Below are positions 12,321-37,072 of a stretch of DNA of 64,000 nt, one piece after another. The notes below the pieces were generated by a model. That model searched no databases. It was not told the origin of the DNA and saw only the letters and a program-made list of their open reading frames with translations. Both the position numbers and the translations under genes were made by a program. Every line of letters begins with the position of its first letter. Position 1 is the first letter of the stretch. The stretch is from Phytoactinopolyspora halophila (GTDB lineage Bacteria; Actinomycetota; Actinomycetes; Jiangellales; Jiangellaceae): positions 310,001 through 374,000 of the forward strand of contig NZ_QMIG01000003.1 in assembly GCF_003287285.1 (NCBI RefSeq), read 5' to 3'.

Positions 12321-15300
12321 ATGGGGGGGGGTCAATTCCTGGGCACTGCTGTGCGCAATGTGGCTGTTATCTCCAGTGTCGGTCTGCTAGCTGCAGGATT
12401 ATCGGTGCCGTCGGGTGCTGGAGATTCTCAAACTAACGGCGTTACCGCTGCCGCAGAAAACGATGCGGACCAGAGCACTGAAAGCAGCTCGAGCGGCCGG
12501 AAAGTTCACGACGTAGATAAACGCCCGTCGCCGCCGGAGCTGGTCCCAGCAGAGGACCGAATTCCCGGAATCGGCGCAATCGAAGATTCTGATCTCGTGC
12601 TTGACCATGATGACGCGCGCGAACTGATGTCGGCGTCTGACGATCTAGCACAAGAGCCTGAACCTCACGAGGACTTGCCCACGCCGATTATTGTCGGGTA
12701 CGAACCGGAGGATCCGATACCAGGGTGCAACACCTGGGGCGTCCTTGTGTGGGCTCATCCGGAGGATGATTCGGATAATCCGATAGTTGGTGGCAACTAT
12801 CACGTGGAACTCTTCCGTGCCTCCGATGACGAACGTGTCTGGGATATGGAATTCCCAGGTTGGGTCCGTGGCATCCGTGTCCTGAGCAATGTATTCGAGG
12901 ACAGTTGCAGGCTGGGAACTGACTATCCGATGCCGGGTCCCCCATTTCTCGAGGTCGGCAAAGAATATTATGCTTCAGTCACTTTTGTGGGAAGTTCAGA
13001 CGACCCCCCACGTAGCGATCCGGCGTACAGCGACACCCATGAGGCGTATGGCTTTCCTGGTTTGCCTGAGGAGTCGACGCGTGGGGATTGTTATTGTGTG
13101 ACGTCGACGGGGCGGCTTTTCCCGTTGAATCAGTTCCGTGGTAACCCGGTCAACACGGCCACGGGGGCGTTGACCGAATCGGCCACGGATGCCGAGATCG
13201 CAAGTATCGGGCAAGGGTTCAGCGCGACCCGATCGTATAACTCGAACAACGAGTCGGTCGGTGTGCTGGGCAAGGGGTGGACGTTCCCGTACTTTGCCCA
13301 TCTGGATATCGGGGCTGATGGCTCGTCGGTGCGCTACATCGCAGAAGACGGCCAGGAGATCACCTATGAGGAGAACGGCGATTCGTTCGAGCCTCCGGAG
13401 GGGCACGCCACGCGGCTGGAATCGACCAGCGATGGCTTCGCGCTTGCCACGAAGGAGCACGAGTCGATCGAGTTCGATTCGGATGGGCGGCTGTCCCGTG
13501 TAGAGGAATCGTCCGGTCAGGGTGTGTCTTTGGCGTATTCGGGTGATCGTCTGGAGACGGTGACCGATGCGTCGGACCGGGATTTCGACATTGACTACAA
13601 CGCGGACGGGTTCATCTCGTCGATCACTCTGCCTGATGGTGAATCGATCTCGTACGAGTACGACGGTGATCTGCTCACGTCGGTGACCGATGTCCGCGGC
13701 GGCGTGACGGAGTACGAGTACGACTCCGAAGGCCGTTTGACGTCGGTCACGAACGCGTTGGGGCACACGGTCACGGAGTCGACGTATGACAGTGCGGGCC
13801 GGGTCGTGGAACAGGTCGATGCCCACGGCGGTGTCACCGAGTTCGAGTACGAGCAGGACGGGGAGTATCTCACCACTTACACCACGGATCCGCTCGGCAA
13901 CGTCACCCGCGATCACTACTACGACAACGTGCTGATCGAAGAGGAGACGGCCGAAGGCGCGGTGACGACGTATGAGTACGACGATCGGCTGCGGCTGGTC
14001 GCCGAAACGGATCCGCACGGGCTGGTCACCAGGCACGAGTACGACGAGGACGACAACCGGATTCGTACCGAGTATCCGAACGGCGATGTCGAGGAATTCA
14101 CCTATTCCGATGATGGTGAGTTGCTGAGCGAGACGTCGCCGGAGGGGCACGTCACGGAGTACGAGTACGACTCGTCGCATCGGGTCACGACGATGACGGA
14201 TCCGGAGGGCGGCGAGACGTCGTATACGTACACCGCCAAGGGCCAAGAAAAGACGGTGACCACGCCGGAGGGCCGCACGAGCACGTACGAGTACGACGAG
14301 GACGGCAACCGGATCGCCGAGATCAGCCCGGAGGGCCGGAAAACGTCGTCGGAATACGACGCGCTGGGTCGCGTGGTGTCCGAGACGTCGGCGCGGGGCC
14401 ACGTGGATGGTGCGGATCCGCAGGATTTCACGAGCACGTACGAGTACGACAAAGCGGGCAATCTCATCGCTTCCAGCGATCCGGCGGGCAATGTCACCGA
14501 GTTCGAGTACGACCTGGTGGATCAGCAGGTCGCGGAGACCGACCCGCTCGGGCGGCGCACCGAGATGGAGTACGACGCCGTCGGCAATCTGGTGCGGGTC
14601 ACCGATCCCACGGGCGCGGTGACCACGCACGAGTACGACGCGGTCGGTAATCGGATCGCGACCACGGATGCTGAGGGTGCCACCACCACGTGGACTTACG
14701 ACGGTGACGGGCGCAAGATTTCGGAGACGAAGCCGCGTGGCAACGAGCAGGGCGCGGACCCGGCTGAGCACACGTGGACCTACGAGTACGACGGCCTCGG
14801 CAACCTGATCTCCGAAACCGATCCGGAGGGTCGCGAGACCACGTACGAGTACGACGAGCGCTATCGCCAGATCTCGGTCACCGATCCGCTCGGGCAGACC
14901 ACGACAACCGAGTACGACGGTGACGGAAACGCCGTGGCCACCACGGATCCGCTGGGCAACACCACCGAAACGGTCTACGACGGGCGTGGCCTGGCGGTGG
15001 AGCAGATCGACGCGGCCGGCGAGGTCACGACGACGGAGTACGACGGCGACGGGCTGGTGCTGGCGGAGACGACTCCCGAGGGGCACACCACGACGTATTC
15101 GTACGATGACGACGGGCTCATGCTCACCCGCACCACGCCACGCGGGAACGAGGCCGAGGCGGATCCGGACGAGTTCACCTGGACACACGCGTACGACGCG
15201 GACGGCAACCAAATTTCGGTGACGGACCCGCTGGGTGGTGAGCAGACCACCACGTACGACGCGCGCGGCCTCGTGACCGAGACGACGGACGAGGTCGGTG

Positions 15301-17759
15301 CCACCACCACGACGAGCTACGACGCGGCCGGCCAGGTCACCAGCGTCACCGGACCGGATGGCGCCGAAACATCGTATACCTACACCGATGCGGGCGAGCT
15401 GAAAACGGTGACCGACCCGAACGGCGGCGTCACCACTTACGGCTATGACCAGGTGCACCGGCGCGTTTCGGTCACCGATCCCCTCGATCGCACCCGCACG
15501 TTCAGCTACGACGCCGACGGCAACCAGGTCACCGAGGTGCTCGCCCGGGCCGAGGAGCACGACGATCCCGACCGGTGGACCATCACCACCGACGTCGACG
15601 AGCGCGGACTACCGACGGCGGTGACGACCGGCTCGGCGTCGTCGTCGCGGTCCTTCACCTACGACGACGCCGGCCGGCTGGTCGAGTACGCCGACGCGTC
15701 CGGCACCACGACCCAGGACTACGACGCGGCAGGCCGGCTCGTCTCGGTGTCCCGCGATCACGCCGACGGTGGTGTGGACGAGTACAGCTACACCTACGAC
15801 GCGCGTGGCCTGCTCACCGAGATCGGCTATCCCGACGGCACGGGCGTACAGCACGAGTACGATGCCGACGGCCTGCGCACCATGACAACGCTGCCGGAAG
15901 GCTTTCGTGAAAGCTACGGCTACGATGCCAACGCGAACCTGACCAGTACGTCTTACCTGCTTCCCGAAGGAAGCAAACCCTTGCGGGTCTACCGCCAGCG
16001 CCAGAAGTACGACGCAGCCGATCGGATCTCGCGGGTATCCCACAGCTACGGAAACGCGTTCATGCCGTACATCTCCTACACCCGCGACGCGGCCGGACGG
16101 CCCATAGAAAGGGCACGCGGCAAGGAGGCACTCGGAGTCGACGCGGCACAGTCATACACCTACGACGACGCTGGCCGGCTCGACCGGGTGTGTTTCTTCG
16201 AGGACACCGAACCCGAACAGTGCACCACCAGCGCGGGTGAGTACATCGACTATGACTACGACGGCAGCGGCAACATTCTTGCCGAAGACCGGCACGGCGT
16301 CGACGATCCCGGGCTGATCACCTACGAATACGACGCCGCCCACCAGCTCGTCTCCGTCGACGGGCAGGAATACACCCACGACGCGGACGGCAACCTCACC
16401 AGCGACGGCACCACCACGTGGACATACGACGCGTTCGACCAGATCGTCGAAGCCGAACACGAGGGCGATGTGGCCGAGCTCGCCTACGACGCGCAAGGCA
16501 ATCGCATCTCCGTCACCACTGGCGGCCAGCAGCGCAACCTGAGCTGGGACATCAACGGCGAGCTGCCCATGCTCACCACCGTCGACGATCCCGACGGACA
16601 GACCACATACCGCTACGGCCCCACCGGGCTGCCCACCCGAATACACCTCGACGACGACACGCAGTTCCTGTTTACCGATGCGCTGGGCACTGTCACCGAC
16701 GCCTACGACGGCGACATTACTCCCAGCTGGCACAGCGAATACGAACCATTCGGGGCGCGGCGCAACACCACCGAAGACGGCCTGACCACCGACGATCTCG
16801 GACTCGGGTTCACCGGCGAATACCACGACCCCGCCACCAACCTGCTACACCTGCGCCTGCGCGACTACAACCCGAACCTGGGCCGCTTTACCGGCACCGA
16901 CCCCGTCACCACACCCACCGGAACACCCTGGACATCCCCATACGCCTACGCCGGCAACCAACCCACCCTGCTCACCGACCCCACCGGTTCCTGTCCGTGG
17001 GACTGGTGCAAAGACCTCTTCGGCTCTGACAACTTCATGCCAACGATGCCGTTCATGCAGGACGCGCTCGTTGGTGCCTCCGGTGCCTACCAAACAGAAG
17101 GCTTCCCCTCACGCAACGAAATATTTGGTGGGTTCGCACTCGGCGCGGTCAGCGCCGGCGAATCGGCAGCCCACGATCTCGCATCCCGAGGCCGCGGCGC
17201 CCACTTCTCCGAAATGACAGGCTGGAACGGCCAATGGCTTGCCGGCCAGATCGACGACTTCAACAGCGACTGGTACCCCGTCACCGCCAGGCTCGGCGAA
17301 GCCGGATTCTACGCAGGCAGCATCGCCGCAAGCCTCCCCTTCGGAGCCCGCACCACCGCCACGGGCCTCACAACGCGCTACTGCCCACCCGGCTTGACGA
17401 GTAACGTTAGGTCGCCACAGCAGCCAGCTCCCGTTGCTCCCAAGGCACTTCCTCGTGGCGGTGTTATAATAAAAGAATCAGACATGCGGCACATAATGGA
17501 AAATCATGGCCCTGAAAGCACTGTTCCCGGCAAAGGAAAATTCTCAAAAGGAACTTCTGAATCTGACATTTCTGCTATGATCGACAGAACGGTCCGCCAT
17601 GGCTCATCTAGAGAGAATACCAAGAATCGCCCTGGAATGATCTACGAGTATAACTTTGGATCGCAAATAGGTGTCGATTACCTAGGAAGTATGAGCACAA
17701 AACTCAGGGTGGTGGTTCGGCCGAACAATACGGCGCGTACCGCATTCCCGTATAATTGA
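12321..17759 (+). CDS. RHS-repeat polymorphic toxin with C-terminal nuclease-like domain
   Basis: 1812 residues. An N-terminal hydrophobic stretch (VAVISSVGLLAAGLSV) suggests Sec export. Next come a low-complexity acidic region and a DUF6531-like entry (PVNTATGALTESATDAEIAS). Dozens of YD repeats follow (YEYDxxGxL) from about 300 to 1490. The RHS core ends near 1505-1560 with LRDYNPNLGRFTGTDP and QPTLLTDPTGSC. The tip (about 1710-1812) has MRHIMENHG, GKFSKGTSESDISAMID and RVVVRPNNTARTAFPYN. That layout recalls BECR-fold RNase toxins (EndoU/colicin D/E5-like), with His as candidate catalytic residue. Tip DNA is AT-rich compared with the rest, as expected for an exchanged cassette. GAGAGGGGG precedes ATG 12321. 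Confidence 0.85.
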   Translation: MGGGQFLGTAVRNVAVISSVGLLAAGLSVPSGAGDSQTNGVTAAAENDADQSTESSSSGRKVHDVDKRPSPPELVPAEDRIPGIGAIEDSDLVLDHDDARELMSASDDLAQEPEPHEDLPTPIIVGYEPEDPIPGCNTWGVLVWAHPEDDSDNPIVGGNYHVELFRASDDERVWDMEFPGWVRGIRVLSNVFEDSCRLGTDYPMPGPPFLEVGKEYYASVTFVGSSDDPPRSDPAYSDTHEAYGFPGLPEESTRGDCYCVTSTGRLFPLNQFRGNPVNTATGALTESATDAEIASIGQGFSATRSYNSNNESVGVLGKGWTFPYFAHLDIGADGSSVRYIAEDGQEITYEENGDSFEPPEGHATRLESTSDGFALATKEHESIEFDSDGRLSRVEESSGQGVSLAYSGDRLETVTDASDRDFDIDYNADGFISSITLPDGESISYEYDGDLLTSVTDVRGGVTEYEYDSEGRLTSVTNALGHTVTESTYDSAGRVVEQVDAHGGVTEFEYEQDGEYLTTYTTDPLGNVTRDHYYDNVLIEEETAEGAVTTYEYDDRLRLVAETDPHGLVTRHEYDEDDNRIRTEYPNGDVEEFTYSDDGELLSETSPEGHVTEYEYDSSHRVTTMTDPEGGETSYTYTAKGQEKTVTTPEGRTSTYEYDEDGNRIAEISPEGRKTSSEYDALGRVVSETSARGHVDGADPQDFTSTYEYDKAGNLIASSDPAGNVTEFEYDLVDQQVAETDPLGRRTEMEYDAVGNLVRVTDPTGAVTTHEYDAVGNRIATTDAEGATTTWTYDGDGRKISETKPRGNEQGADPAEHTWTYEYDGLGNLISETDPEGRETTYEYDERYRQISVTDPLGQTTTTEYDGDGNAVATTDPLGNTTETVYDGRGLAVEQIDAAGEVTTTEYDGDGLVLAETTPEGHTTTYSYDDDGLMLTRTTPRGNEAEADPDEFTWTHAYDADGNQISVTDPLGGEQTTTYDARGLVTETTDEVGATTTTSYDAAGQVTSVTGPDGAETSYTYTDAGELKTVTDPNGGVTTYGYDQVHRRVSVTDPLDRTRTFSYDADGNQVTEVLARAEEHDDPDRWTITTDVDERGLPTAVTTGSASSSRSFTYDDAGRLVEYADASGTTTQDYDAAGRLVSVSRDHADGGVDEYSYTYDARGLLTEIGYPDGTGVQHEYDADGLRTMTTLPEGFRESYGYDANANLTSTSYLLPEGSKPLRVYRQRQKYDAADRISRVSHSYGNAFMPYISYTRDAAGRPIERARGKEALGVDAAQSYTYDDAGRLDRVCFFEDTEPEQCTTSAGEYIDYDYDGSGNILAEDRHGVDDPGLITYEYDAAHQLVSVDGQEYTHDADGNLTSDGTTTWTYDAFDQIVEAEHEGDVAELAYDAQGNRISVTTGGQQRNLSWDINGELPMLTTVDDPDGQTTYRYGPTGLPTRIHLDDDTQFLFTDALGTVTDAYDGDITPSWHSEYEPFGARRNTTEDGLTTDDLGLGFTGEYHDPATNLLHLRLRDYNPNLGRFTGTDPVTTPTGTPWTSPYAYAGNQPTLLTDPTGSCPWDWCKDLFGSDNFMPTMPFMQDALVGASGAYQTEGFPSRNEIFGGFALGAVSAGESAAHDLASRGRGAHFSEMTGWNGQWLAGQIDDFNSDWYPVTARLGEAGFYAGSIAASLPFGARTTATGLTTRYCPPGLTSNVRSPQQPAPVAPKALPRGGVIIKESDMRHIMENHGPESTVPGKGKFSKGTSESDISAMIDRTVRHGSSRENTKNRPGMIYEYNFGSQIGVDYLGSMSTKLRVVVRPNNTARTAFPYN
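12323..12331 (+). repeat. Nine-G homopolymer at the RHS start codon
   Basis: The start ATG is followed directly by eight more G, giving a run of nine G (12323-12331) that encodes the Gly repeat after Met. A gain or loss of one G would shift the frame at codon 2. Such tracts can slip during replication, so this is a candidate on/off switch for the toxin gene. Confidence 0.7.
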
Positions 17760-20056: not shown

Positions 20057-21073
20057 ATGGCTGAGACCAACCCCCGGAACAGCCCACCCCGACGACACAT
20101 GTCCCGCCGCTCCATGCTCGTCGGCGCCACGGCCAGCATGGCCGTTCCCGCAATAGCTGCGACCAGCGCCGACGCGGCACCGCCCGCCGCCACTTCGCGA
20201 GGGCGCGGAAAGGGTTCCGGCGAGACCCGCAGCATCACGATGTACGCCGAAGAGCTCGACGACGGCCAGATCGGATACGGACTCGAACCGGGTGAGGCCA
20301 CGATCCCCGGCCCGATTCTGGAGATGTGGGAAGGCGACACGCTTGAGATCGATCTGGTCAACAACACCGACGAACGCCTCTCGATTCACCCGCACGGCGT
20401 CGACTACGACGTCGATTCCGACGGCAGCCCGCTCAACGATTCCTTCAATGAACCCGGCGAGCGGCGCACCTATGTCTGGACCACCCGGGAACCATTCAAG
20501 GGCCCGAAGAGTATGTGGATGCCGGGCAGCGCGGGTTACTGGCACTACCACGACCACGCGATGGGCACGCCACACGGCACGAAGGGCATCCGCAAGGGTC
20601 TGTACGGCGCGCTGATTGTCAGGCGCAAGGGCGACATCCTTCCCGACCGCCAGTTCACCGTCGTGTTCAACGACATGACGATCAACAACAAGATGGCGCC
20701 GGACGCTCCGGTGTTCGAAGCCCGGCTCGGTGAACGGGTGGAGTTCATCGCCATCGGCCACGGAAACACCTTCCACACGTTTCACATCCACGCGCACCGC
20801 TGGGCGGACAACCGCACCGGCATGCTCGAAGGCCCGAACGATCCGAGCCCGGTGATCGACAACAAGGACCTCAACCCGGGTTCCTCGTACGGCTTCCAGA
20901 TCATCGCCGGTGAGGGCGTCGGACCCGGCGCCTGGATGTACCACTGCCACGTGCAGTTCCACTCCGATGACGGCATGGCCGGGATCTTCCTAGTCCGCAA
21001 CGAGGACGGCACCCTTCCCGACGGCGCGCAGGAGGCATTGGACCGATACCACGGGCACGGGTCGGACGAGTAG
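20057..21073 (+). CDS. Two-domain small laccase (multicopper oxidase), Tat-exported
   Basis: 338 residues. A twin-arginine signal is clear ([20 protein letters not shown]). Copper ligands occur in the four expected blocks: IHPHG (His111, His113), [20 protein letters not shown] and [15 protein letters not shown]. The last holds the type 1 Cys and the two trinuclear-site His. Length and motif wording match the trimeric two-domain small laccases of Streptomyces (SLAC/EpoA type), which oxidise phenols or other donors and reduce O2 to water outside the cell. ATG 20057 has GGAG six bases upstream. It is the first gene of a secreted redox cluster, 14 bases before the next gene. Confidence 0.9.
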
Positions 21074-21087
21074 CTGAAGGAGGAGCG

Positions 21088-24000
21088 ATGGACCGCGCAG
21101 GTTTCTTACGCTCAGACAGCAAGACACGAACGGAACCGAGATCATGGCGAGGCGCGATCGCCCTGGCAGCCAGTGCCGCACTGGCGTTGGGTATGTCGGC
21201 CGTGCCCGCACTGGCAGAAACTGGAAACTCCCCACAACCCGAACCGTCCCCGGCCTCGACGGCACCTGCCGCGCCCGGGGGTTCCGCCGCATCAGATGGT
21301 GGCCAGGGCACGGCAGCATCCACGGCGGCCGCGGCTCCCGCGGCGAGCGACTCGGTGAACGTGCTCGTGTTCCACGGCGCGGCCGACGAGCAAGAGGACC
21401 CGGTCGCCGAGGCCACACAAGCGATCGAGGAGCTCGGTGAGCAGCACGACTTCACGGTCGAGGCATCAAGCGATCCCGAGGTGTTCTCCCGGCAGAATCT
21501 GAGCGAATACCGCGGCGTCGTTTTCCTTTCCGCCGAGGGAACCGAACTCACCGGTGCACAGGAGGATGCGCTCCAGTCCTATGTCCAGGCCGGCGGCGGC
21601 TTTCTCGGCATCCGCGACGCCGCCCGCGCGCAAGAGCGTTCGGAGTGGTTCACCGGCTTGATCGGTACCCGCCCCGTCGGCAGCTTGCCCGACCCCGAGC
21701 ACGTCGCCGAGGTAACGGCCAGCGCCAACAACCCTCCGAACGAGACGGAGGAGAATCTGATCGACGGCGATGTCGACACCAAGTGGCTCGCCTTCGAACC
21801 GACGGCGTGGATCGTCCTGCAGCTCGCCGAACCCGCGGCCGTGTCACAGTATGCGCTGGCATCGGCGAACGACTTCCCTGGCCGCGATCCGCAGGACTGG
21901 ACCCTGCAGGGCTCGCAGGACGGGGAGAACTGGACGGACCTGGACAGCCGATCCGGCGAGGAGTTCCAGGAACGCTTCCAGACCAAGGACTACGAGTTCG
22001 AGAACGACGAGGAGTACAAGTACTACCGGCTCGACATCACCGCCAACAACGGCGACGGCCTGACGCAACTCGCCGAGTTGCAGCTCTTCGCCGGCGACGT
22101 GACCGAGCCCGAGCCGGAGATCGACGAGCAGGAGGCGACCGTCAGCGTCGTCGACGATCAGCATCCGGCCACCGAGGACCTGCCGCGCACCTGGACACGC
22201 ACCGACAAGTGGATCAACTGGGCACCCAACCCGGTCGGGGACGTGCACACCGTCGCGCAGGTGCAGGAGAAGACGTACGACCCGGGCGATGGCGCCAACG
22301 GTGCGTTCCACCCCGTCTCGTGGTGCCGCGACTACGACGGTGGCCGCTCGTTCTACACCGGCATGGGCGGCACCGAGGAGAGCTACTCCGACGACGGCTT
22401 CCGCAGCCACCTGCTTGGCGCCATCCAGTGGACCACCGGCATGGTACGCGGCGACTGCCAGGCCACTATCGGTGACAACTACACGATCGAACGGCTGACG
22501 GACGAGAACCAGGAAGGCGAGCTCGACCAGATCGGCGAGCCGCACGGCCTGGACGTCGCTCCCGACGGCACGGTCTTCTACATCGGCAAGGCGGCCTGCC
22601 CATCTGGACCGGTCCCCGACTGGGACGACCCGGACGTCGGGCTGGGATGCGGCACCATTCACCAGTGGGATCCGGACACCGAGGAGGCGAAGCTGCTCAC
22701 CACGCTGGACGTGTTCGGTAACCGCGGAAGCGGTGGCGAGCTCGTCAAGAGCGAGGAAGGGCTGGTCGGCATCACGCTGGACCCGGACTTCCAGGAGAAC
22801 GGGTGGATCTACATCATGTGGATGCCGCACGAGTCCATCGACGTCGACGCCCGGATCGGCCAGCGCACGGTGTCCCGGTTGACGTACGACTTCGAAACGG
22901 AGTCGATCGACCAGAGCACCCGCGAGGATCTGCTGCAATGGGACACCCAGATCCATAGCTGCTGCCACGCCGGCGGTGGCATGGACTTCGATTCCGACGG
23001 CAACCTCTACGTCGGCGTCGGGGACAGCAACTCGTCGCAGGGTTCGCAAGGCTACTCGGGCAATAACTGGGAGCAGGACTACAAGGGCGTCTCCTTCCAG
23101 GACGCGCGCCGCACGTCCGGCAACACCAACGACCTCAACGGGAAGATCTTGCGGATCCACCCCGAGGACGACGGCTCGTACACGATCCCCGAGGGCAACC
23201 TCTTCACCGGTGACGAGGAAGGCGGCGGCAAGACCCGCCCGGAGATCTACGTCATGGGCGTGCGCAATATCTCCACGCTGAGCATTGACCGCGAGCACGA
23301 CTGGCTCAACGCCGCCTGGGTCGGGCCGGACGCCCCGTCGCCGAGCCCGGAGCTCGGCCCGGCGAAGTACGAGACCGCGACGGTCATCACCTCCGCCGGC
23401 AACCAGGGCTGGCCGTACTGCATGGGCAACCGGCAGCCGTACCGGGACCGCAGCAACGAGGACCCGGACGAGCTGACCGGCTGGTACGACTGTGACGACC
23501 TGAAGAACGAGTCGCCACGCAACACCGGCCTCGTCGACATTCCCGATGCCCGGGACAACATGATCTGGTACTCGCCTAACGGCGGCGGCCCGGTCTTCCC
23601 GGAACGCGACGACGGCAGCGGGGTGCCGACCTACGAGGAGGAGGACGCGACCTACACGCAGCCCTATCTCAAGGGCGGCTGCCAGGCGGTCATGTCCGGA
23701 CCGACGTACCACGCGTCGCAGGTCGACACCGACAGCGGAGTCGCATGGCCCACGCACTGGGAGGACAAGTGGTTCATCGGTGACGAGTGCAACTCGAACA
23801 ACAGCATCGCCGTGACCCTCGATCCGGACGGCATCGAGGATCAGAGCCCACCGCTGTTCGCCGAGAGCCTGCGCTCCATCATCCGCGGGGGCACCGGCGA
23901 CGACCGGCTCCAGAACTGGATGATGGACGCCAAGTTCGGCCCGGACGGTGCGCTGTACATGCTGGACTACGGCGGCGGGTTCTTCAGCCTGACCGACAAC

Positions 24001-25179
24001 CAGAAGCTGATCCGCGTCACCTACGACGGCGGCCCGGCCACGCCCGAGGCCACCGCGTCGGCGACAGCCGTGCAGAACAAACCACTCACCATCGCCTTCA
24101 CCGGCCAACGCTCCGGCGGCGTGGCGTACGAGTGGGACTTCGGCGACGGCAACGGCTCCGACGAGGCCAACCCGCGGCACACCTACGAGACACCCGGCAC
24201 CTATACGGCCACGCTCACGGTGATGTATGCGGATGGTGAAACGGCGACCACCACCACGGAGGTCACCGTCGAGTGTGCGGTGCCGGACACCCGCGACACC
24301 GTCCAGATCCGCGACGCCGGCACCGGCGTGCCCAACCACGAGGTCGGCGGTGACTGCACCATCAACGACCTGATCGACGACGAGGGTGACTGGTCGAGCC
24401 ACGGTGCGTTCGTCGAGCACGTCAACGACGTCGCCAACCGGCTGAAGTCGGACGGCGTCATCTCCGGCAAGGAGAAAGGCATGCTGACGAGGACGGCCGC
24501 GAAGTCCGACATCGGCAAGAAGGGCGACACCGGATACGAGGCCATCTTCGATGGGACGGCCGAGTCGCTGCTGGGATGGTCCCAGGCGCCGGGTGGCCAC
24601 TTCGAGCTCCAGGACGACGGGACGCTGCTCTCCCAGGGCGGCCTGGGCATGCTGTGGTACTCGGCCGAGGAGTTCGACGATTTCTCGGTGCGCCTCCAGT
24701 TCCGTGATGTCGCACCCGAGGGTCATCACGCGAACAGCGGCGTGTTCGTGCGGTTCCCGGACCCGCGCACGCCGGTGGAGGAGCGCCCGGAGTGCGGCAC
24801 GACCGGTGCTGCGGAGACCTCCCAGGCGTGGGTCGCGATCTACTGCGGTCAGGAGATCCAGATCTACGACGGCGAGTCCGGTGAACCGCAGAAGACCGGC
24901 TCGATCTACAACTTCGACCCTGTCGGTCTCGACGACGCCGGAGCGACCCCGAAGGGTCAGTGGAACGACTACGAGATCCGGGTAGTCGATCAGCAGTACA
25001 CGATCATCCGCAATGGCGAGGTGATCAACGAGTTCGACAACTCGCCCGGTCAGGAATCGTCCAGGGACGGTGATCCGCCGACGGATCTGCGCCAGTTCGC
25101 CAGCGGGTTCATCGGGCTGCAGAACCATGGCAACGACGATCTGATCGAGTTCCGCAACATCCGGGTCCGCGAGCTATAG
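21088..25179 (+). CDS. Secreted ThuA / discoidin / sorbosone-dehydrogenase-like / PKD / DUF1080 protein
   Basis: 1363 residues. A signal peptide ends near ALAETG and an Ala/Pro linker follows. A ThuA-like domain starts near 90 (VNVLVFHGAADEQ), is split by an F5/8-type C (discoidin) domain at about 209-337, and resumes to about 460. A six-bladed glucose/sorbosone-dehydrogenase propeller follows (about 464-985; GEPHGLDVAPDG, GNRGSGGELVKSEEGLVGIT, NRQPYRD). Then come a PKD domain (about 988-1062; WDFGDGN), an unnamed module (about 1063-1145; GGDCTINDLIDDEG to SDIGKKG) and DUF1080, the 3-keto-disaccharide-hydrolase fold (about 1150-1363; FDGTAESLLGW). Likely substrates are oxidised sugars or glycosides outside the cell. 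GGAGGAG precedes ATG 21088. Confidence 0.88.
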   Translation: MDRAGFLRSDSKTRTEPRSWRGAIALAASAALALGMSAVPALAETGNSPQPEPSPASTAPAAPGGSAASDGGQGTAASTAAAAPAASDSVNVLVFHGAADEQEDPVAEATQAIEELGEQHDFTVEASSDPEVFSRQNLSEYRGVVFLSAEGTELTGAQEDALQSYVQAGGGFLGIRDAARAQERSEWFTGLIGTRPVGSLPDPEHVAEVTASANNPPNETEENLIDGDVDTKWLAFEPTAWIVLQLAEPAAVSQYALASANDFPGRDPQDWTLQGSQDGENWTDLDSRSGEEFQERFQTKDYEFENDEEYKYYRLDITANNGDGLTQLAELQLFAGDVTEPEPEIDEQEATVSVVDDQHPATEDLPRTWTRTDKWINWAPNPVGDVHTVAQVQEKTYDPGDGANGAFHPVSWCRDYDGGRSFYTGMGGTEESYSDDGFRSHLLGAIQWTTGMVRGDCQATIGDNYTIERLTDENQEGELDQIGEPHGLDVAPDGTVFYIGKAACPSGPVPDWDDPDVGLGCGTIHQWDPDTEEAKLLTTLDVFGNRGSGGELVKSEEGLVGITLDPDFQENGWIYIMWMPHESIDVDARIGQRTVSRLTYDFETESIDQSTREDLLQWDTQIHSCCHAGGGMDFDSDGNLYVGVGDSNSSQGSQGYSGNNWEQDYKGVSFQDARRTSGNTNDLNGKILRIHPEDDGSYTIPEGNLFTGDEEGGGKTRPEIYVMGVRNISTLSIDREHDWLNAAWVGPDAPSPSPELGPAKYETATVITSAGNQGWPYCMGNRQPYRDRSNEDPDELTGWYDCDDLKNESPRNTGLVDIPDARDNMIWYSPNGGGPVFPERDDGSGVPTYEEEDATYTQPYLKGGCQAVMSGPTYHASQVDTDSGVAWPTHWEDKWFIGDECNSNNSIAVTLDPDGIEDQSPPLFAESLRSIIRGGTGDDRLQNWMMDAKFGPDGALYMLDYGGGFFSLTDNQKLIRVTYDGGPATPEATASATAVQNKPLTIAFTGQRSGGVAYEWDFGDGNGSDEANPRHTYETPGTYTATLTVMYADGETATTTTEVTVECAVPDTRDTVQIRDAGTGVPNHEVGGDCTINDLIDDEGDWSSHGAFVEHVNDVANRLKSDGVISGKEKGMLTRTAAKSDIGKKGDTGYEAIFDGTAESLLGWSQAPGGHFELQDDGTLLSQGGLGMLWYSAEEFDDFSVRLQFRDVAPEGHHANSGVFVRFPDPRTPVEERPECGTTGAAETSQAWVAIYCGQEIQIYDGESGEPQKTGSIYNFDPVGLDDAGATPKGQWNDYEIRVVDQQYTIIRNGEVINEFDNSPGQESSRDGDPPTDLRQFASGFIGLQNHGNDDLIEFRNIRVREL

Positions 25180-25184
25180 CCGAA

Positions 25185-25226
25185 CGGCTGGCCGGTGCGG
25201 CGCGTTCGTGCCGCACCGGCCAGCCG
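25185..25226 (+). terminator. Strong hairpin between the two large secreted-protein genes
   Basis: Two perfect 17-base arms (25185-25201 and 25210-25226, starting CGGCTGGCCGG) with an 8-base loop GCGTTCGT, six bases after the stop codon. There is no T tract, as is common for actinobacterial terminators. It could also be an attenuator that limits read-through to the cupredoxin gene. Confidence 0.75.
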
Positions 25227-25297
25227 CGGCTCTCGTCAATCCCCCGGGACGTTTCCAATTCCGAGGATCCCCCGAGGAACCGAGAAAGGTGTCTCTC

Positions 25298-27175
25298 ATG
25301 TATCGACGACTATCCGCGGCCTTGCCCCACCGCCGCTCGCGTGCGGCTCGCGGCCTGGCCGTGACTGTGGTCAGCGCCGTGTTGGCCACGTTGTGCCTCC
25401 TCCCCACGTCGTCCGCCACCCAGAATTCGGCCACCTTCCAGAGCGACGAGTCGCCGGCTGCCGCGCAGGAACAGGTGCTCACCTGGACCGCCGACGACAG
25501 CACGACCGAGTACGCCTCCGCCCCCACGACCGCGACGGCGGGGCCCGCGACTCTCGTGTTCGAGAACAGTACGGACACGGGCAACACCACGGGCATGCCC
25601 CACACGCTGACCTTCGACACCTCGAACCCCGACTACAACCAGGACGTCGACGTCGACATCCTGGCCAGCCCGTCCGATTCCAACGGCGGGCGGTACGAGG
25701 TGGACGTGGTCCTCTCCCCCGGTGAATACCGCTACTTCTGTGACATCCCGGGTCACGGTCAGATGGAGGGCGTACTCGTGGTCACCGATGACGGCGGCGA
25801 GGACACGACTCCCCCGGATGTGTCGGCCGAGGTGAGCGGCGACCAGAACGACGACGGCGACTACGTGGGGGCCGCCACCGTGACCCTCGCCGCCACCGAC
25901 ACCGATTCCGGCGTCGACACCGTCGAGTATCAGATCGACGACATGGGTTTCGAGCCCTACACCGAACCGGTGACGGTCGACGAGCCCGGGGACCACTCGG
26001 TTCAGTACCGCGCCACCGACAACGCTGGCAACACGTCGGACACCGGCACGGTCAGCTTCACGGTGGTCGAACCCGACCCCGGTGACACGACTCCCCCGGA
26101 CGTGTCGGCCGACGTGAGCGGCGACCAGAACAGCGACGGCGACTACGTGGGGGCCGCCACCGTCACCCTCACCGCCACCGACACCGACTCCGGCATCGAC
26201 ACCATCGAGTACAACCTCGATAACGCCGGCTTCGAGCCCTACACCGACCCCATCACCATCGACGAACCCGGCGACCACACCGTCGAATACCGCGCCACCG
26301 ACAACGCCGGCAACACCTCCGACGTCAAATCCGTCATCGTCACCATCGTGGAACCCGACCCCGGTGACACGACTCCCCCGGACGTGTCGGCCGAGGTCAG
26401 CGGCGACCAGAACGACGACGGCGACTACGTGGGGGCCGCCACCGTCACCCTCACCGCCACCGACACCGACTCCGGCATCGACACCATCGAGTACAACCTC
26501 GATAACGCCGGCTTCGAGCCCTACACCGACCCCATCACCATCGACGAACCCGGCGACCACACCGTCGAATACCGCGCGACGGACAACGCTGGCAACACCT
26601 CCGACGTCAAATCCGTCATCGTCACGATCGTGGAGCCCGATCCGGGTGACACGACTCCCCCGGACGTGTCGGCCGAGGTCAGCGGCGACCAGAACAGCGA
26701 CGGCGACTACGTCGGCTCCGCCACCGTCACCCTCACCGCCACCGACACCGACTCCGGCATCGACACCATCGAGTACGACCTCGACAGCACCGGCTTCGAG
26801 CCCTACACCGACCCGGTGACGGTCGACGAGCCCGGCGACCACACCGTCGAATACCGCGCCACGGACAACGCCGGCAACACCTCCGACGTCAAGTCCGTCA
26901 TCGTCACCATCGTCGAGCCCGACCCGGGCGAGTGCTCGGACACCAGGGACACGGTGATCATCGGCTCCATCGACACCACGGTGGAGAACGCCGATGTCGG
27001 CGACGGCTGCACCATCAACGACCTCATTGACGAGGACGGCGAGTACGCCAACCATGGCCAGTTCGTTAAGCACGTACGAGACGTCACCAAGGAGCTGATG
27101 AAGGAGGGCATCGTCTCCGGGAGCGAGAAGGGCCGCATCATGAGCGCTGCCGCCCGCTCCGACATCGGCAAGTAG
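25298..27175 (+). CDS. Secreted cupredoxin with four tandem Ig-like repeats and shared C-terminal module
   Basis: 625 residues. A signal peptide (GLAVTVVSAVLATLCLLPTSSA) precedes a plastocyanin/azurin-like domain (about 58-165) with all type 1 copper ligands: His102 (GMPHTL), Cys148, His153 and Met156 (FCDIPGHGQM). Four 94-residue repeats follow (about 169-544), each beginning DTTPPDVSA and ending near TIVEPDPG. They resemble Ig-like or OmpL47-type beta-sandwich spacers. Residues 546-625 are a module (DGCTINDLIDEDGEY to ARSDIGK) also found in the preceding gene's product. ATG 25298 follows GAGAAAGG. It would be an extracellular copper electron carrier displayed on a stalk. Confidence 0.85.
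   Translation: MYRRLSAALPHRRSRAARGLAVTVVSAVLATLCLLPTSSATQNSATFQSDESPAAAQEQVLTWTADDSTTEYASAPTTATAGPATLVFENSTDTGNTTGMPHTLTFDTSNPDYNQDVDVDILASPSDSNGGRYEVDVVLSPGEYRYFCDIPGHGQMEGVLVVTDDGGEDTTPPDVSAEVSGDQNDDGDYVGAATVTLAATDTDSGVDTVEYQIDDMGFEPYTEPVTVDEPGDHSVQYRATDNAGNTSDTGTVSFTVVEPDPGDTTPPDVSADVSGDQNSDGDYVGAATVTLTATDTDSGIDTIEYNLDNAGFEPYTDPITIDEPGDHTVEYRATDNAGNTSDVKSVIVTIVEPDPGDTTPPDVSAEVSGDQNDDGDYVGAATVTLTATDTDSGIDTIEYNLDNAGFEPYTDPITIDEPGDHTVEYRATDNAGNTSDVKSVIVTIVEPDPGDTTPPDVSAEVSGDQNSDGDYVGSATVTLTATDTDSGIDTIEYDLDSTGFEPYTDPVTVDEPGDHTVEYRATDNAGNTSDVKSVIVTIVEPDPGECSDTRDTVIIGSIDTTVENADVGDGCTINDLIDEDGEYANHGQFVKHVRDVTKELMKEGIVSGSEKGRIMSAAARSDIGK
25802..26929 (+). repeat. Four tandem 282-base repeats inside the cupredoxin gene
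   Basis: Units begin at 25802, 26084, 26366 and 26648 with exactly the same period of 282 bases (94 codons). Units 2 and 3 are nearly identical over their middle 200 bases. Unit 1 is the most divergent at its 3' side (SDTGTVSFTVVE instead of SDVKSVIVTIVE). This is the pattern expected from recent duplication by unequal crossing over. Confidence 0.9.
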
Positions 27176-27180
27176 CGAAT

Positions 27181-27226
27181 CACGACGCCGGGCCCGTGCA
27201 CGTGGAGGCACGGGCCCGGCGTCGTG
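27181..27226. terminator. Bidirectional terminator hairpin between convergent genes
   Basis: Perfect 19-base arms (27181-27199 and 27208-27226, beginning CACGACGCCGGGCCCG) with an 8-base loop. It starts five bases after the cupredoxin stop and ends 30 bases before the end of the converging oxidoreductase gene. It can therefore serve both. Confidence 0.85.
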
Positions 27227-28935: not shown

Positions 28936-28996
28936 CAATTCGCCTGGGACCGTCTGACCAGGCATGAAGTGCCACTAGGCCGAGGAGGGTGTGACC

Positions 28997-29797
28997 ATGA
29001 GCCCGGCGAATATCGAGCACCACGGCCTCAGCACGATCTACGAGCCGGCCTCGGGCATCGCGGCGTCCTTCCGGCCGGTGGGCACGAACCTCAATTCCGG
29101 AGGGCTGTACGGCAGCGTGGTCCAGACCCTCGGACGCCGGATCGCCACCGGGGAACTGCCGGCGGGTACCCGGCTCCGGGTGGAGGACCTGTCGGTGGAA
29201 TTCGGCGTCTCCCGGACGATCGTGCGCGAGAGCCTGCGCTCGCTGGAGGCCAAACGCCTGGTCGGCGCCCGGCCCAGGGTCGGAACCCTGGTCCTGCCCG
29301 TCGATCAGTGGAATCTACTCGATCCCGACGTCATCGGCTGGCGGCTGGGCGGGCCGTCTGCCGACGCGCTCATGACCGAGCTGCTTGACCTTCGCCGCGC
29401 GGTGGAACCGCTCGCGGCGCGCAGTTTCGCGAATCACCCCGACGACGAGGGTTTGCGTGCGCTGCGTGAGAGCGCCGAGCAGATGCGCCGGGCCGTTGAC
29501 GACGGCGACTTCGGCCTGTTCAGCCAGGCCGACAGCCGATTTCACCGGATCGTCGTCGCGCATTCCGGCAGCCAGGTGCTGGGACAGCTGGTGGATGCCG
29601 TCGTAGCCGCGCTGCAGGCACGTGAACAGCTGCTGCTGATGCCCGAGCATCTAGACGAAGCTGTCGTGCGCTCACACGCGGCGGTGGTCGAGTGCATCGC
29701 CAACCAGGATCCCGACGATGCCGAGCATGCCGCCCGGCTCATCGTCGACGTGGCGTCGGACGAGGTCGCCCGCAAGCTGAAGGAGGGCACTCCGTGA
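28997..29797 (+). CDS. GntR-family (FadR subfamily) regulator, DgoR-like
   Basis: 266 residues. The wHTH region spans about 40-105 (GELPAGTRLRVEDLSVEFGVSRTIVRESLRSLE). VDQWNLLDPDVIGWRL is a linker wording seen in galactonate and sugar-acid GntR regulators. The FCD domain runs to the end (QADSRFHRIVVAHSG, VRSHAAVVECI with metal-binding His). ATG 28997 follows GAGGAGGG; a GTG two codons earlier is too close to the ribosome site. Its stop overlaps the alpha-galactosidase start, so it is the first gene of the operon it probably controls. Confidence 0.85.
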   Translation: MSPANIEHHGLSTIYEPASGIAASFRPVGTNLNSGGLYGSVVQTLGRRIATGELPAGTRLRVEDLSVEFGVSRTIVRESLRSLEAKRLVGARPRVGTLVLPVDQWNLLDPDVIGWRLGGPSADALMTELLDLRRAVEPLAARSFANHPDDEGLRALRESAEQMRRAVDDGDFGLFSQADSRFHRIVVAHSGSQVLGQLVDAVVAALQAREQLLLMPEHLDEAVVRSHAAVVECIANQDPDDAEHAARLIVDVASDEVARKLKEGTP

Positions 29798-31245
29798 CAG
29801 AAGACCCCAGCGCATCCACCGGCCGGCAGTTCCACGAGCTGTCCCGGGTGCCCGTCGATCCCGACGCCGGCGTGGTGTACGAGTTCGGCTGGCAGTCGTG
29901 GTCGCCGAGCACGGCCTACCCCGTGTCGGCTGGCGGCGGGTTCCGCCCGACGCGCCCCGAGCTGCAAACGTCGTACTATCGCCGGGAGAAGCCCGCACCG
30001 GCAGCCGCCTTTCAAGGTGAGGGCCTGCTCGCGATCGAGCCGGCACCGGGCGAGCCGGTCCACGTCGTCGCCCTGCGCGACGGCCGGGCCGAGGTGCCGA
30101 CCATCCGGGCGGAGCGCCGGTCAGACACTCTCCACGTCGCGGCCGACGGCGCCGTAGACCAGGTCGTCGACGACGGTCCGGGCGGCCTCTACGGCGCCCT
30201 CGCCCGGTTCGCCGACCGCTACATCGCGGCCGTGGGCACGCCGACGCTGCGGGACGTCCCGCCGATGTGGGCCAGCTGGTACCAGTACTTCACCGGGTTC
30301 ACCGAAGACGACCTGATCCGCAATCTCGACGCGATGGACGCCCTCGACCTGCCGGTGGGCATCGTCCGCCTGGACGACGCCTTCCAGGCAGGTATCGGCG
30401 ACTGGCTCGCCCCGTCGGAGGGGTTCTCGTCCCTGGACGGAATGATCGGGCGCGTTCTCGACCGGGGACGCCGGGCGGGAATCTGGACCGCTCCCCTGCT
30501 CGTGGGCGCCGAGAGCCGGACGTTCGCCGAGCATCCGGACTGGCTGGTCCGCGATGCCGCGGGCCGGCCGATCGTCGCGCAGCACAACTGGAACCAGGAC
30601 TGCTACGTCCTCGACGCCACGCATCCTGCCGCCGCTGACTATCTGCGCGAGGTGTTCACCACGTATCGCCGATACGGCGCGACCTACTTCATGGTCGATT
30701 TCATGTACGCGGGCGCCATCGAGGGCGTCCGGCACGCCGACGTCGACGGCATCACCGCCTACCGCGACGCCCTCCGGCTCATCCGCTCCTGCATCGGTGA
30801 CGACGCGTTGCTCCAGGCGTGCGGCGCGCCGATGTTCCCCTCCGTCGGTCTGGTCGACACCATGCGTGTCGGCACCGACGTGGCCCCGCACTGGTTCCCG
30901 CCCGGAGGCGAGATGTCCAGCCCGGCCACCCGGGCCGCCGTCGTGTCCACCGTCGGGCGCGCCTTCACCCAGGGACGGTTCTGGATCAACGATCCCGACT
31001 GCCTGGTGGCGCGCCCCCAGATCGAAGGACGGGAACGATGGGCCGAGGTGGTGGACCGCTACGGCGGGGTGCGGATCAGCAGTGACGGCCTGGACCAGCT
31101 CGACGATTGGGGCCTGGAGACGACACACCGGCTCCTGGTGCCGGCCCGGACGGCGCCGTTCGACCCCTCCCGGGTGCCGCTCGACACGAGCCTGTTCCAG
31201 GACACCCCGCCAACCGTCGAGCATTCGGCAGGTGCACCACGATGA
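29794..31245 (+). CDS. GH36-like alpha-galactosidase
   Basis: 483 residues. The (beta/alpha)8 core has WASWYQYFTGFTEDDLIRNLD, VRLDDAFQAGIGDW, GIWTAPLLVGAES and YFMVDFMYAGAIEG, whose Asp is the expected nucleophile. VDTMRVGTDVAPHW carries the acid/base Asp. These are clan GH-D (GH27/GH36) signatures. It is shorter than classical 700-residue GH36 enzymes, with a reduced N-terminal beta domain, and has no signal peptide. It would therefore hydrolyse imported alpha-galactosides in the cytoplasm. GTG 29794 overlaps the regulator stop (GTGA). Confidence 0.82.
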   Translation: MTEDPSASTGRQFHELSRVPVDPDAGVVYEFGWQSWSPSTAYPVSAGGGFRPTRPELQTSYYRREKPAPAAAFQGEGLLAIEPAPGEPVHVVALRDGRAEVPTIRAERRSDTLHVAADGAVDQVVDDGPGGLYGALARFADRYIAAVGTPTLRDVPPMWASWYQYFTGFTEDDLIRNLDAMDALDLPVGIVRLDDAFQAGIGDWLAPSEGFSSLDGMIGRVLDRGRRAGIWTAPLLVGAESRTFAEHPDWLVRDAAGRPIVAQHNWNQDCYVLDATHPAAADYLREVFTTYRRYGATYFMVDFMYAGAIEGVRHADVDGITAYRDALRLIRSCIGDDALLQACGAPMFPSVGLVDTMRVGTDVAPHWFPPGGEMSSPATRAAVVSTVGRAFTQGRFWINDPDCLVARPQIEGRERWAEVVDRYGGVRISSDGLDQLDDWGLETTHRLLVPARTAPFDPSRVPLDTSLFQDTPPTVEHSAGAPR

Positions 31246-33008
31246 CATCCCCCGACCAGCCCACGACCGATCCCGAGGCCGGATCCGGCGCGCCCGCGCA
31301 GCTGCGTAGCCGCGTATGGTTCGCCGATCCCGGCAAGACCGGTTTCATCGCGCGATCACACCTGCGCGCGGCCGGCCTGACCGACGAGGCGTTCGACGGC
31401 CGTCCCGTCGTCGGCATCGCCAACAGCTGGTCCGAGCTGAACCCGTGTAACGGGCATCTGCGCGATGTCGCCGCCGCGGTGCGCCGTGGCGTGCTGGCCG
31501 CTGGAGGGCTCCCGCTGGAGTTTCCCACCATGTCCCTCGGTGAGCCGCTGATGCGGCCCACCACCATGCTCTACCGCAACCTGATGAGCATCGATGTCGA
31601 GGAAACGCTGCGGGCCAACCCGGTGGACGCCGTCGTGTTGCTCGGCGGGTGTGACAAGACCACGCCGGCGCAGTTGATGGGTGCGGCGAGTGTCGACCTC
31701 CCCACCCTCATGGTCACCGGCGGGCCCATGGTCTCCGGCTCGTTCCGGGGCGAGCCGATCGGCAGCGGCACCGATCTGTGGCGCTTCAGCGAGGACGTCC
31801 GTTCGGGACAGATGAGCTCCACCGATTTCACCGAAGCCGAGTCCTGCATCCACCGCAGCGCGGGACACTGCATGACCATGGGAACCGCATCGACGATGGC
31901 CTGCCTGACCGAAGCGCTCGGTATCCAGATGTCGGGTGGGGCGGCATTCCAGGCCGTCGACAGCGGTCGCCGCCAGCTCGCCGAACGGTCCGGACGCCGC
32001 GCCGTGCACATGGCCGGGCACGGCCCGCGGCCCTCGGCGGTGCTGACGCGGCAAGCCTTCGAGAACGCGGCGCGGGCGAACGCGGCCATCGGCGGCTCGA
32101 CGAACGCCGTGCTGCACCTGCTCGCGCTGGCCGGGCGGGTCGGTGTGGATCTCACGCTGGACGACCTGGACCGGCTGGGCCGTGACGTCCCCCTCCTCGT
32201 CGACCTCAAACCGAGCGGCACGTACTTGATGGCCGAGTTCGAACAGGCCGGCGGCATGCCAGCCTTGCTGCACGAGCTCCTCCCCCTCCTGCACGCGGAC
32301 GCGATCACCGTCGACGGGCCCACCCTCGGCGACGCGGTCCGGCATGCCGAGCGGTACTGGCCGGAAGTCATACGCGGTCTCGACGAGCCGGTGCTGCCTT
32401 CGGACACGGGAACGGCTGTGCTCCGCGGGAACCTGTGCCCGGACGGTGCCGTGATCAAGCAGTCGGCGGCCGAACCCCGGCTCCTGAAACATCGTGGCCG
32501 CGCTCTGGTGTTTGACGACGTCGAAAGCTACCTGCGGGCCGCCGAAGACCCGGCACTGGACGTCGACGCCGACTCCGTGCTCATCGTCCGCAACTGCGGC
32601 CCGCGTGGGTATCCGGGCATGCCAGAGATCGGCAACCTCCCGATTCCGGTCCGCCTGCTGGAGTCCGGCGTTACCGACATGGTCCGCATCTCCGATGCAC
32701 GCATGAGCGGAACCTCCTACGGAACCGTCATCCTGCACGCCGCCCCGGAAGCCGCCGCGGGTGGGCCGCTGGCGCTCGTCCGGAACGGCGACATGGTGGC
32801 CCTCGACGTCTCCTCGCGGCGCCTCGACGTCGAGATCGACGATGCCGAGCTGGAACGCCGACGCGCGGAATGGTCGCAGCCCCCTCCGTCCCAGGATCGT
32901 GGATGGGCCAAACTGTACGTCGATCACGTGCTGCAGGCCGATCAGGGAGCCGACCTCGACTTCCTGGTCGGCAGCAGCGGCGACGCCGTTCCCCGGGTGC
33001 CGTTCTGA
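31242..33008 (+). CDS. IlvD/EDD-family sugar-acid dehydratase
   Basis: 588 residues. Iron-sulfur ligands are Cys in NPCNGHL, GGCDKTTPAQLMGA and GHCMTMGTASTM. The last two wordings are those of pentonate/hexonate dehydratases with a [2Fe-2S] cluster, not of dihydroxyacid dehydratase ([16 protein letters not shown]). The C-terminal barrel has VIVRNCGPRGYPGMPEIG and ISDARMSGTSYGTVILHAAPEA. It would convert an aldonate, probably galactonate given the neighbours, to the 2-keto-3-deoxy acid. ATG 31242 overlaps the preceding stop. Confidence 0.85.
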   Translation: MTSPDQPTTDPEAGSGAPAQLRSRVWFADPGKTGFIARSHLRAAGLTDEAFDGRPVVGIANSWSELNPCNGHLRDVAAAVRRGVLAAGGLPLEFPTMSLGEPLMRPTTMLYRNLMSIDVEETLRANPVDAVVLLGGCDKTTPAQLMGAASVDLPTLMVTGGPMVSGSFRGEPIGSGTDLWRFSEDVRSGQMSSTDFTEAESCIHRSAGHCMTMGTASTMACLTEALGIQMSGGAAFQAVDSGRRQLAERSGRRAVHMAGHGPRPSAVLTRQAFENAARANAAIGGSTNAVLHLLALAGRVGVDLTLDDLDRLGRDVPLLVDLKPSGTYLMAEFEQAGGMPALLHELLPLLHADAITVDGPTLGDAVRHAERYWPEVIRGLDEPVLPSDTGTAVLRGNLCPDGAVIKQSAAEPRLLKHRGRALVFDDVESYLRAAEDPALDVDADSVLIVRNCGPRGYPGMPEIGNLPIPVRLLESGVTDMVRISDARMSGTSYGTVILHAAPEAAAGGPLALVRNGDMVALDVSSRRLDVEIDDAELERRRAEWSQPPPSQDRGWAKLYVDHVLQADQGADLDFLVGSSGDAVPRVPF

Positions 33009-33955
33009 TGTCCGCGCAGCCGGCCACATCTCCCGACCGGTCCGCACCTCCCCGGGGTATCAGCCCGGTCCTGCTGACGCCCTTCACCGACGACGGCGGC
33101 ATCGACGAGTCCGGCTTCGTCCGCGTCGCCGACCACGTCCTGTCCCTGGGTGTGGGTTCGGTGATGTTTCCCGGGTTCGCGTCGGAAATGCTGGCCCTCT
33201 CCGAGCACGAGCGCGACACGCTCACCCACCTGCTCGTCGATCGGGCGGCCCGGTACCCCGGCGCCACCGTCATCGCATCCGTTCCCGACCACGCGACGTG
33301 GCACGCGACGCGGCGCACGGCGTCGCTGGTGGAGGCCGGTGTCGGCGCGCTCAACCTGCTGCCGCCACACCAGCTCGGCCCGCCGGGCGACGCCGTCATG
33401 GCACACATCGAGGCCGTGCTTGCCGCCGCATCACCCGTCCCGGTCATCCTGCAGTACGCGCCGGTGCAGACCGGGACCGTCCTCGATGTCGGCACCGTGT
33501 CCGCCCTGGCCGCCCGGCATCCGAACCTGGTGGCAGTGAAGGTCGAGTCACAGCCACCGGGCCGCACGGTCGCGGCCCTGCTCGGCGCCAGCCCGCCGCT
33601 CCCCTCGCTCGTCGGCTACGGCGGTGTGCAGATGCTCGACGCTCTGACCCGCGGCGCCGTGGGGGTGCAGCCGGGCTGTTCGTTCACCGAGCTCTACCTG
33701 GCGGTCTGGGCGCACCGGGAGGCCGGAGACCATGCCGCTGCCCGGGAGCTGCACACCCGCATGCTGCCGTACCTGTCCTACTGGATGCAGGACGTCGGCC
33801 TGATCGTCGCCGCCGAAAAGCTCATCGCCCACCGGCGAGGACTCATTCGCAGCGAGCATTGCCGCGCACCCGCCCGGCAGCTCGATGATGTCGAGCGGGA
33901 CATGGTCGAGCTCTTCTGCACCGAGTTCGCCGACACGCTTCCGGAGGTTCCGTGA
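33008..33955 (+). CDS. DHDPS-family aldolase or dehydratase
   Basis: 315 residues. Lys in LVAVKVES is the Schiff base residue and Tyr in VILQYAPVQ the proton relay. The usual GTTGE substrate loop is FPGFASE here, so the carboxylate-binding site is altered. Placed after an IlvD-type dehydratase it may cleave a 2-keto-3-deoxy acid to pyruvate plus an aldehyde. It could instead dehydrate it further to an alpha-ketoacid semialdehyde, as KDG dehydratases of this family do. The ATG shares a base with the previous stop (TGATG). Confidence 0.78.
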   Translation: MSAQPATSPDRSAPPRGISPVLLTPFTDDGGIDESGFVRVADHVLSLGVGSVMFPGFASEMLALSEHERDTLTHLLVDRAARYPGATVIASVPDHATWHATRRTASLVEAGVGALNLLPPHQLGPPGDAVMAHIEAVLAAASPVPVILQYAPVQTGTVLDVGTVSALAARHPNLVAVKVESQPPGRTVAALLGASPPLPSLVGYGGVQMLDALTRGAVGVQPGCSFTELYLAVWAHREAGDHAAARELHTRMLPYLSYWMQDVGLIVAAEKLIAHRRGLIRSEHCRAPARQLDDVERDMVELFCTEFADTLPEVP

Positions 33956-36949: not shown

Positions 36950-37021
36950 ACGTCGGTTCTCCTCCAGCGCCCTGCGGCGCGTGTGTGCGTTGTCGTTCGC
37001 TGGTGTCACCAGCTCGGCGCG

Positions 37022-37072
37022 GGCCCGTGACGCCACCGGCCGACGTCACATGGCCCACGGACGTCACGGGCC
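37022..37072 (-). terminator. Intercistronic hairpin after the binding-protein gene
   Basis: Arms GGCCCGTGACG (37022-37032) and CGTCACGGGCC (37062-37072) are perfect complements with a 29-base loop. The hairpin lies between the binding-protein stop and the beta-galactosidase start. It may stabilise the upstream message or partly terminate it, which would explain higher expression of the binding protein. Confidence 0.55.

Follow-up and report, generated by a model that had tools for sequence, protein, structure and literature searches.

A secreted propeller protein and a cupredoxin co-inherited with the actinomycete small laccase: a possible extracellular electron chain to oxygen

What do the small laccases of soil actinobacteria do for the organisms that make them? 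Proposals have ranged over morphogenesis, pigment, copper and lignin, and none has settled the matter (PMC5675413). A locus of Phytoactinopolyspora halophila bears on this question. At positions 20057-27175 of the window, by which we mean the whole 64,000-nucleotide stretch of DNA analysed, three intact ORFs, all on the + strand, encode a laccase, a propeller protein and a cupredoxin protein. A first-pass annotation had read them as consecutive genes for a Tat-exported laccase, a secreted propeller and a cupredoxin, a description borne out by the intact frames and by Pfam and PDB matches. Why should these three genes be neighbours? The locus is laid out as follows.

20057..21073, + strand: two-domain (small, SLAC-type) laccase with a Tat signal, 338 aa (Pfam, PDB matches)
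21088..25179, + strand: secreted ThuA / F5-8C / GSDH propeller / PKD / C-terminal module / DUF1080 protein, 1363 aa
21352..21702, + strand: ThuA domain, first half, aa 89-205 (Pfam)
21700..22107, + strand: F5/8-type-C carbohydrate-binding-like domain inside ThuA, aa 205-340 (Pfam)
22114..22434, + strand: ThuA domain, second half, aa 343-449 (Pfam)
22468..24012, + strand: six-bladed GSDH-type propeller with Cys-Cys-His, Arg-Asn and a Met replacing the second PQQ arginine
24037..24270, + strand: PKD domain, aa 984-1061 (Pfam)
24286..24516, + strand: C-terminal module of the propeller protein, 55% identical to that of the cupredoxin protein
24532..25170, + strand: DUF1080 / 3-keto-disaccharide hydrolase domain, aa 1149-1361 (Pfam)
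25185..25226, + strand: 20-bp inverted repeat between the propeller and cupredoxin genes, a possible attenuator
25298..27175, + strand: secreted cupredoxin / four OmpL47 repeats / C-terminal module protein, 625 aa
25418..25798, + strand: type 1 copper (cupredoxin) domain, ligands His/Cys/His/Met
26942..27172, + strand: C-terminal module of the cupredoxin protein
27181..27226, + strand: 19-bp perfect inverted repeat 3' of the cassette, a likely terminator

The laccase and propeller genes lie 14 nt apart, with a good ribosome-binding site (gaaggaggag) before the propeller-gene ATG, and 118 nt containing the 20-bp hairpin separate the propeller and cupredoxin genes. Judged from this layout, with hairpins between the propeller and cupredoxin genes and after the cassette, co-transcription of all three is likely. 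A sigma-70 promoter scan gave no match above chance, and no CsoR operator was found near the three window genes at one mismatch or fewer. Just downstream, at 28991-34755, genes for a GntR/FCD regulator, a melibiase-like protein, an IlvD/Edd dehydratase, a DHDPS-family aldolase and an SDR dehydrogenase form a sugar-acid catabolism cluster, followed by a GH42 beta-galactosidase gene at 34907-37036; this cluster is not kept beside the cassette in other genomes. At 12321-17759 the window also encodes an 1812-aa RHS/YD-repeat protein with a short distinct C-terminus, and the small ORF after it could encode its immunity protein.

The three genes co-occur across genomes as well as in the window. Among 217 genomes of the class Actinomycetes, a profile search found the cupredoxin in 38, a search at E < 1e-60 found a SLAC-type laccase in the identical 38, and the cassette propeller (E < 1e-100) is present in 37 of these; in the single carrier without it, G037, the cupredoxin lies at base 79 of a contig. 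None of the three was found in any other genome. Leaving phylogeny aside, so complete an overlap of laccase and cupredoxin would arise by chance with a probability of about 1e-43; the carriers come from 8 genera. Because genera g5 and g24 each mix carriers with non-carriers, the cassette genes seem to be gained or lost together. The genes are also physically linked: 80 named loci collected by the cupredoxin alone, which include Streptomyces, Micromonospora, Saccharomonospora, Prauserella, Amycolatopsis, Actinokineospora, Asanoa, Georgenia and Jiangella, carry all three genes in 78 cases; at the other two, L067 and L072, the sequence breaks off at the end of a contig. The genes stand in at least five orders, as scored from crude gene calls, and the linkage is therefore more than inherited synteny; within Streptomyces the cassette flanks do resemble lineage synteny. 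No further partner gene is conserved at essentially all of 85 loci, the next commonest occurring at 41 or fewer. Given all-or-none co-occurrence and adjacency maintained under rearrangement, it is close to certain that the three genes are one functional unit.

The laccase itself is of the two-domain type. It begins with a twin-arginine start (MSRRSML), contains both Pfam multicopper-oxidase domains and finds its best PDB matches among solved two-domain laccases (E 1e-116 to 1.7e-133). The motifs HPHG, HYHDH, HTFHIH and HCHVQFH, together with a Met, supply the type 1 and trinuclear copper ligands, and the ligand positions are invariant in 99/99 relatives, one non-ligand His of HYHDH being variable. 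Streptomyces SLAC belongs to the same two-domain family and has the same copper ligands. It has been studied as an isolated phenol oxidase, and the passages of that literature considered here are silent on a cupredoxin/ThuA-GSDH cassette; it oxidises many phenols and has been obtained active as a recombinant protein without a cupredoxin protein (PMC3918160). In S. coelicolor SLAC is SCO6712 (PMC3918160), and a published list gives SCO6710 as a glycosyl hydrolase and a putative target of repression by the copper sensor CsoR (PMC6414726). Projected from the gene order in its relative S. coelicoflavus (L115), SCO6710-6712 are probably this cassette. Extra SLAC paralogues without a cassette occur at L057 and L060. 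Two tandem small laccases share one cassette at L157, L158, L159 and L058, which suggests specialised copies.

The third protein matches Pfam Copper-bind above its cut-off (E 8.8e-5) and has four OmpL47-type repeats after the N-terminal cupredoxin. Its motifs, MPH and FC..PGH..M, provide the His-Cys-His-Met set of a type 1 site in a plastocyanin/azurin-like domain, and the four ligands that the first-pass annotation had pointed out are all invariant, in 97/97 sequences. Both it and the propeller protein carry the C-terminal module, about 77 aa long, for which AlphaFold2 gives a confident small beta/alpha fold that has no match in the PDB. We considered the module as a cassette-specific docking tag and ruled this out, as it also ends an X-Pro dipeptidyl-peptidase-like protein of the same genome (L062, 9975-12266).

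Beyond the class, SLAC relatives at roughly 46-54% identity occur without the cassette cupredoxin in 7/326 genomes of the phylum, and a universal pairing of SLAC with this cupredoxin is accordingly rejected. A different cupredoxin gene nevertheless adjoins the laccase in four of the five out-of-class loci with enough flank (L150, L151, L154 and L156), the fifth, L153, having none beside it; at L150, L151 and L154 the cupredoxin that follows the two-domain laccase is fused to a NosD-like right-handed beta-helix, a pairing apparently undescribed so far. Because of these four loci, the laccase-cupredoxin pairing may be wider than that with the ThuA-GSDH protein, and the sample, though small, favours the view that these laccases in general receive electrons from a cupredoxin.

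What, then, is the propeller protein? Pfam identifies ThuA (E 1.5e-59), GSDH (3.1e-20), PKD and F5/8-type-C domains, along with 3keto-disac_hyd/DUF1080 (PF06439; E 5.8e-34, 118 bits against a cut-off of 26.8). The ThuA match is split into two stretches around the F5/8C domain, an insertion missing from the ThuA of Streptomyces-type cassettes. An AlphaFold2 model of the propeller (mean pLDDT 85, pTM 0.91) is six-bladed and resembles 2ism (Z 34.1), 3a9g (Z 34), the PQQ-bound S. coelicolor enzyme 3das (Z 31.1) and sGDH (Z 27), as well as fungal AA12 (Z 22-23 at 12-13% identity). With sGDH and Asd (1CQ1, 3DAS, 2G8S) the cassette propeller thus shares the fold (Z 27-34), and also several residues of the site: the equivalents of the sGDH catalytic His144 and of the PQQ-quinone contacts Arg228 and Asn229 are invariant in 95/95 cassette propellers, and Gly247-Pro248, the backbone calcium site, is likewise kept in 95/95 by sequence alignment, marking a candidate calcium site. 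It differs from them in adding ThuA and DUF1080 domains, in an extra Cys-Cys before the catalytic His, and in the absence of the RxR motif that holds the PQQ carboxylates. The Arg408 position is Met in 95/95 and the Arg406 position, which we take to be a PQQ-carboxylate anchor in sGDH, is Trp or unaligned, both positions being placed by sequence alignment and not by superposed coordinates. Published PQQ contacts of sGDH include Arg408 and Lys377 (PMC6881789). All 23 readable single-domain relatives have the RxR motif and no cassette propeller does, a comparison that leaves out three rows (L192, L193 and L221) read at a doubtful place.

The first-pass annotation had assumed a quinoprotein. The quinone-side residues and the Gly-Pro pair that this predicts are there; the carboxylate arginines are missing, the 406/408 pair being kept in no cassette propeller. 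PqqE exceeds its curated cut-off in 3/217 genomes, all of them cassette carriers of genus g24, and at that cut-off was not found in the other 35 of the 38 carriers, this genome included. Bacteria can scavenge PQQ, so a missing PqqE lowers the case for a PQQ enzyme and does not exclude it. Since the propellers lack the carboxylate arginines and most carriers lack PQQ synthesis, we do not call the propeller PQQ-dependent, and its status as a quinoprotein, read from sequence, is doubtful. At the second RxR position the ThuA-type paralogues carry Met, His or Gln, and most ThuA-type members have Cys-Cys directly before the catalytic His; a strict link between Cys-Cys and loss of RxR was rejected, since SGH or GVH occurs together with Met in some ThuA-type relatives. 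Four further large ThuA-GSDH-type proteins are encoded in the same genome (L061, L063, L065 and L066), three with Cys-Cys-His and none with RxR. We give only a slim chance to the idea that the ThuA-type propeller has ceased to be a PQQ enzyme and that the Met (His in some relatives) and the Cys-Cys-His form a copper or vicinal-disulfide redox centre, in which case the chain would run without an organic cofactor.

The chemistry at the sugar is better indicated by the partners than by the propeller. DUF1080 is present in 79/80 named loci, and its position moves: it ends the propeller protein in window-type cassettes, it ends the cupredoxin protein in Streptomyces-type cassettes (L059), where the propeller protein stops after GSDH, and at L077 and L092 it is on both. 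Through this switching the keto-sugar hydrolase is linked to each of the two redox proteins. DUF1080 proteins hydrolyse 3-ketotrehalose or, putatively, 3-ketolactose (PMC9007349). In Micromonospora (L072, L077), Amycolatopsis (L136) and genome G155 (L159) the cassette itself includes an exported AP_endonuc_2 TIM-barrel protein, and in two Streptomyces (L106, L114) one is encoded nearby; among the members of that superfamily are a proven eliminase acting on 3-keto-glycosides and a probable hydratase of such compounds (PMC10628242). The 3-keto-glycoside chemistry to which the first-pass annotation had pointed is therefore a good guess, with the assignment to C3 coming from DUF1080 and AP_endonuc_2 and not from the propeller itself. 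Caulobacter follows a similar logic, an extracytoplasmic dehydrogenase acting with a DUF1080 3-keto-glycoside hydrolase (PMC9007349), but its dehydrogenase is the membrane-bound LacABC, in whose place the cassette has a propeller, a cupredoxin and a laccase.

We propose that the cassette encodes an extracellular chain from glycoside through propeller and cupredoxin to laccase and O2, coupled to cleavage of the 3-keto-glycoside, and we hold this reading with evenly balanced confidence. The ThuA-GSDH protein would oxidise a glycoside, most likely at C3; the cupredoxin would take the electrons singly and deliver them to the two-domain laccase at its type 1 copper, and the laccase would reduce O2 to water; the DUF1080 domain would then cleave the 3-keto-glycoside, assisted in some genomes by the exported TIM-barrel eliminase. 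We base the proposal on the genes present, their export signals and copper ligands, the propeller fold and the inheritance of the three as all or none; we infer the path and direction of the electrons, oxidation at C3, the substrate and the cofactor of the propeller. The association of a ThuA-GSDH protein with laccases and glycoside cleavage in Cellulosimicrobium (PMC4562250) also speaks for the chain, while the account of that activity as hydrolysis, the missing PQQ-carboxylate arginines and the extra SLAC paralogues at L057 and L060 speak against it. Copper nitrite reductase, a trimeric two-domain copper enzyme that receives its electrons from a cupredoxin (azurin or pseudoazurin), offers a parallel to the proposed laccase, but its acceptor is nitrite and not O2.

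The main rival dispenses with electron transfer from the sugar: the ThuA-GSDH-DUF1080 protein would deglycosylate phenolic glycosides in a redox-neutral manner, the laccase would couple or detoxify the released phenol, and the cupredoxin would shuttle electrons only between phenol and laccase. We consider this unlikely, though far from negligible. In its favour is the Xyl_I/Xyl_S complex of Cellulosimicrobium cellulans F16, with a secreted, laccase-associated, glycoside-cleaving ThuA-GSDH-PKD protein that resembles the cassette propeller protein but has CBM6 where the cassette has DUF1080, has no reported cupredoxin and is described as a glycosidase (PMC4562250). Purified as the taxane-xylose-removing subunit of a secreted complex of hemicellulases and laccases, this protein deglycosylates pNP-glycosides and xylosyl-taxane and cleaves beta-xylosides and beta-glucosides by what is described as plain hydrolysis, not oxidation, in a paper that does not mention PQQ (PMC4562250). 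That activity did not come from recombinant protein, turnover on the taxane fell from 13.2 to 0.061 per second once the subunit was isolated, and the authors were unable to assign the catalytic domain (PMC4562250). The breadth of phenols that SLAC oxidises suits this rival and also exposes its gap (PMC3918160): since the laccase takes phenols directly, a type 1 cupredoxin kept as strictly as the laccase is left unexplained.

That retention could instead mean that the cupredoxin protein delivers copper to the laccase or helps it mature, with the ThuA-GSDH protein working separately, which we think improbable. The out-of-class partners do have NosD-like beta-helix domains, and the family takes its name from a factor in the maturation of a copper enzyme, but these matches may mean merely "right-handed beta-helix", and the listing of SCO6710, close to SLAC, as putatively CsoR-repressed (PMC6414726) has to be set against recombinant SLAC that is active without the cupredoxin (PMC3918160; solved structures). 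Linkage to the propeller would also be left unexplained. The usual Cu(I) chaperones, moreover, are not known to have the type 1 electron-transfer ligand set, which here is invariant in 97/97. A last alternative, to which we give a very slim chance, keeps the propeller as an electron source and sends its electrons to other extracellular oxidases, such as lytic polysaccharide monooxygenases, with the laccase as a side branch or O2 scavenger, as has been suggested for fungal AA12 and AA8 proteins. The resemblance of the propeller model to AA12 (Z 22-23) speaks for it, and AA12 is considered to take part in the oxidative breakdown of cell walls outside the cell (PMC6881789). The fungal pyranose dehydrogenase AA12-AA8-CBM1 is likewise a secreted modular enzyme in which a propeller dehydrogenase is combined with a carbohydrate-binding module and a partner for electron transfer (PMC6881789), but that partner is a cytochrome b in the same chain, there is no laccase or DUF1080, and its PQQ residues are probably different. 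Against such a branch, no gene family outside the trio recurs at essentially all of the 85 loci.

We found no published description of the three-gene combination in the open literature, which was the scope of the search, and the earlier impression that it is undescribed holds to that extent. Twenty years of work have seen small laccases crystallised, engineered and put to use, and the cassette now names two defined, testable partner proteins. The small laccase of soil actinobacteria is co-inherited with two neighbouring secreted genes, one of them from a large ThuA-GSDH family that resembles quinoproteins yet is without a key part of the PQQ site. The electron chain proposed here would give the enzyme a likely natural job, that of passing electrons from extracellular sugar oxidation to oxygen, and suggests an oxidative route of sugar cleavage outside the cell in common soil bacteria.
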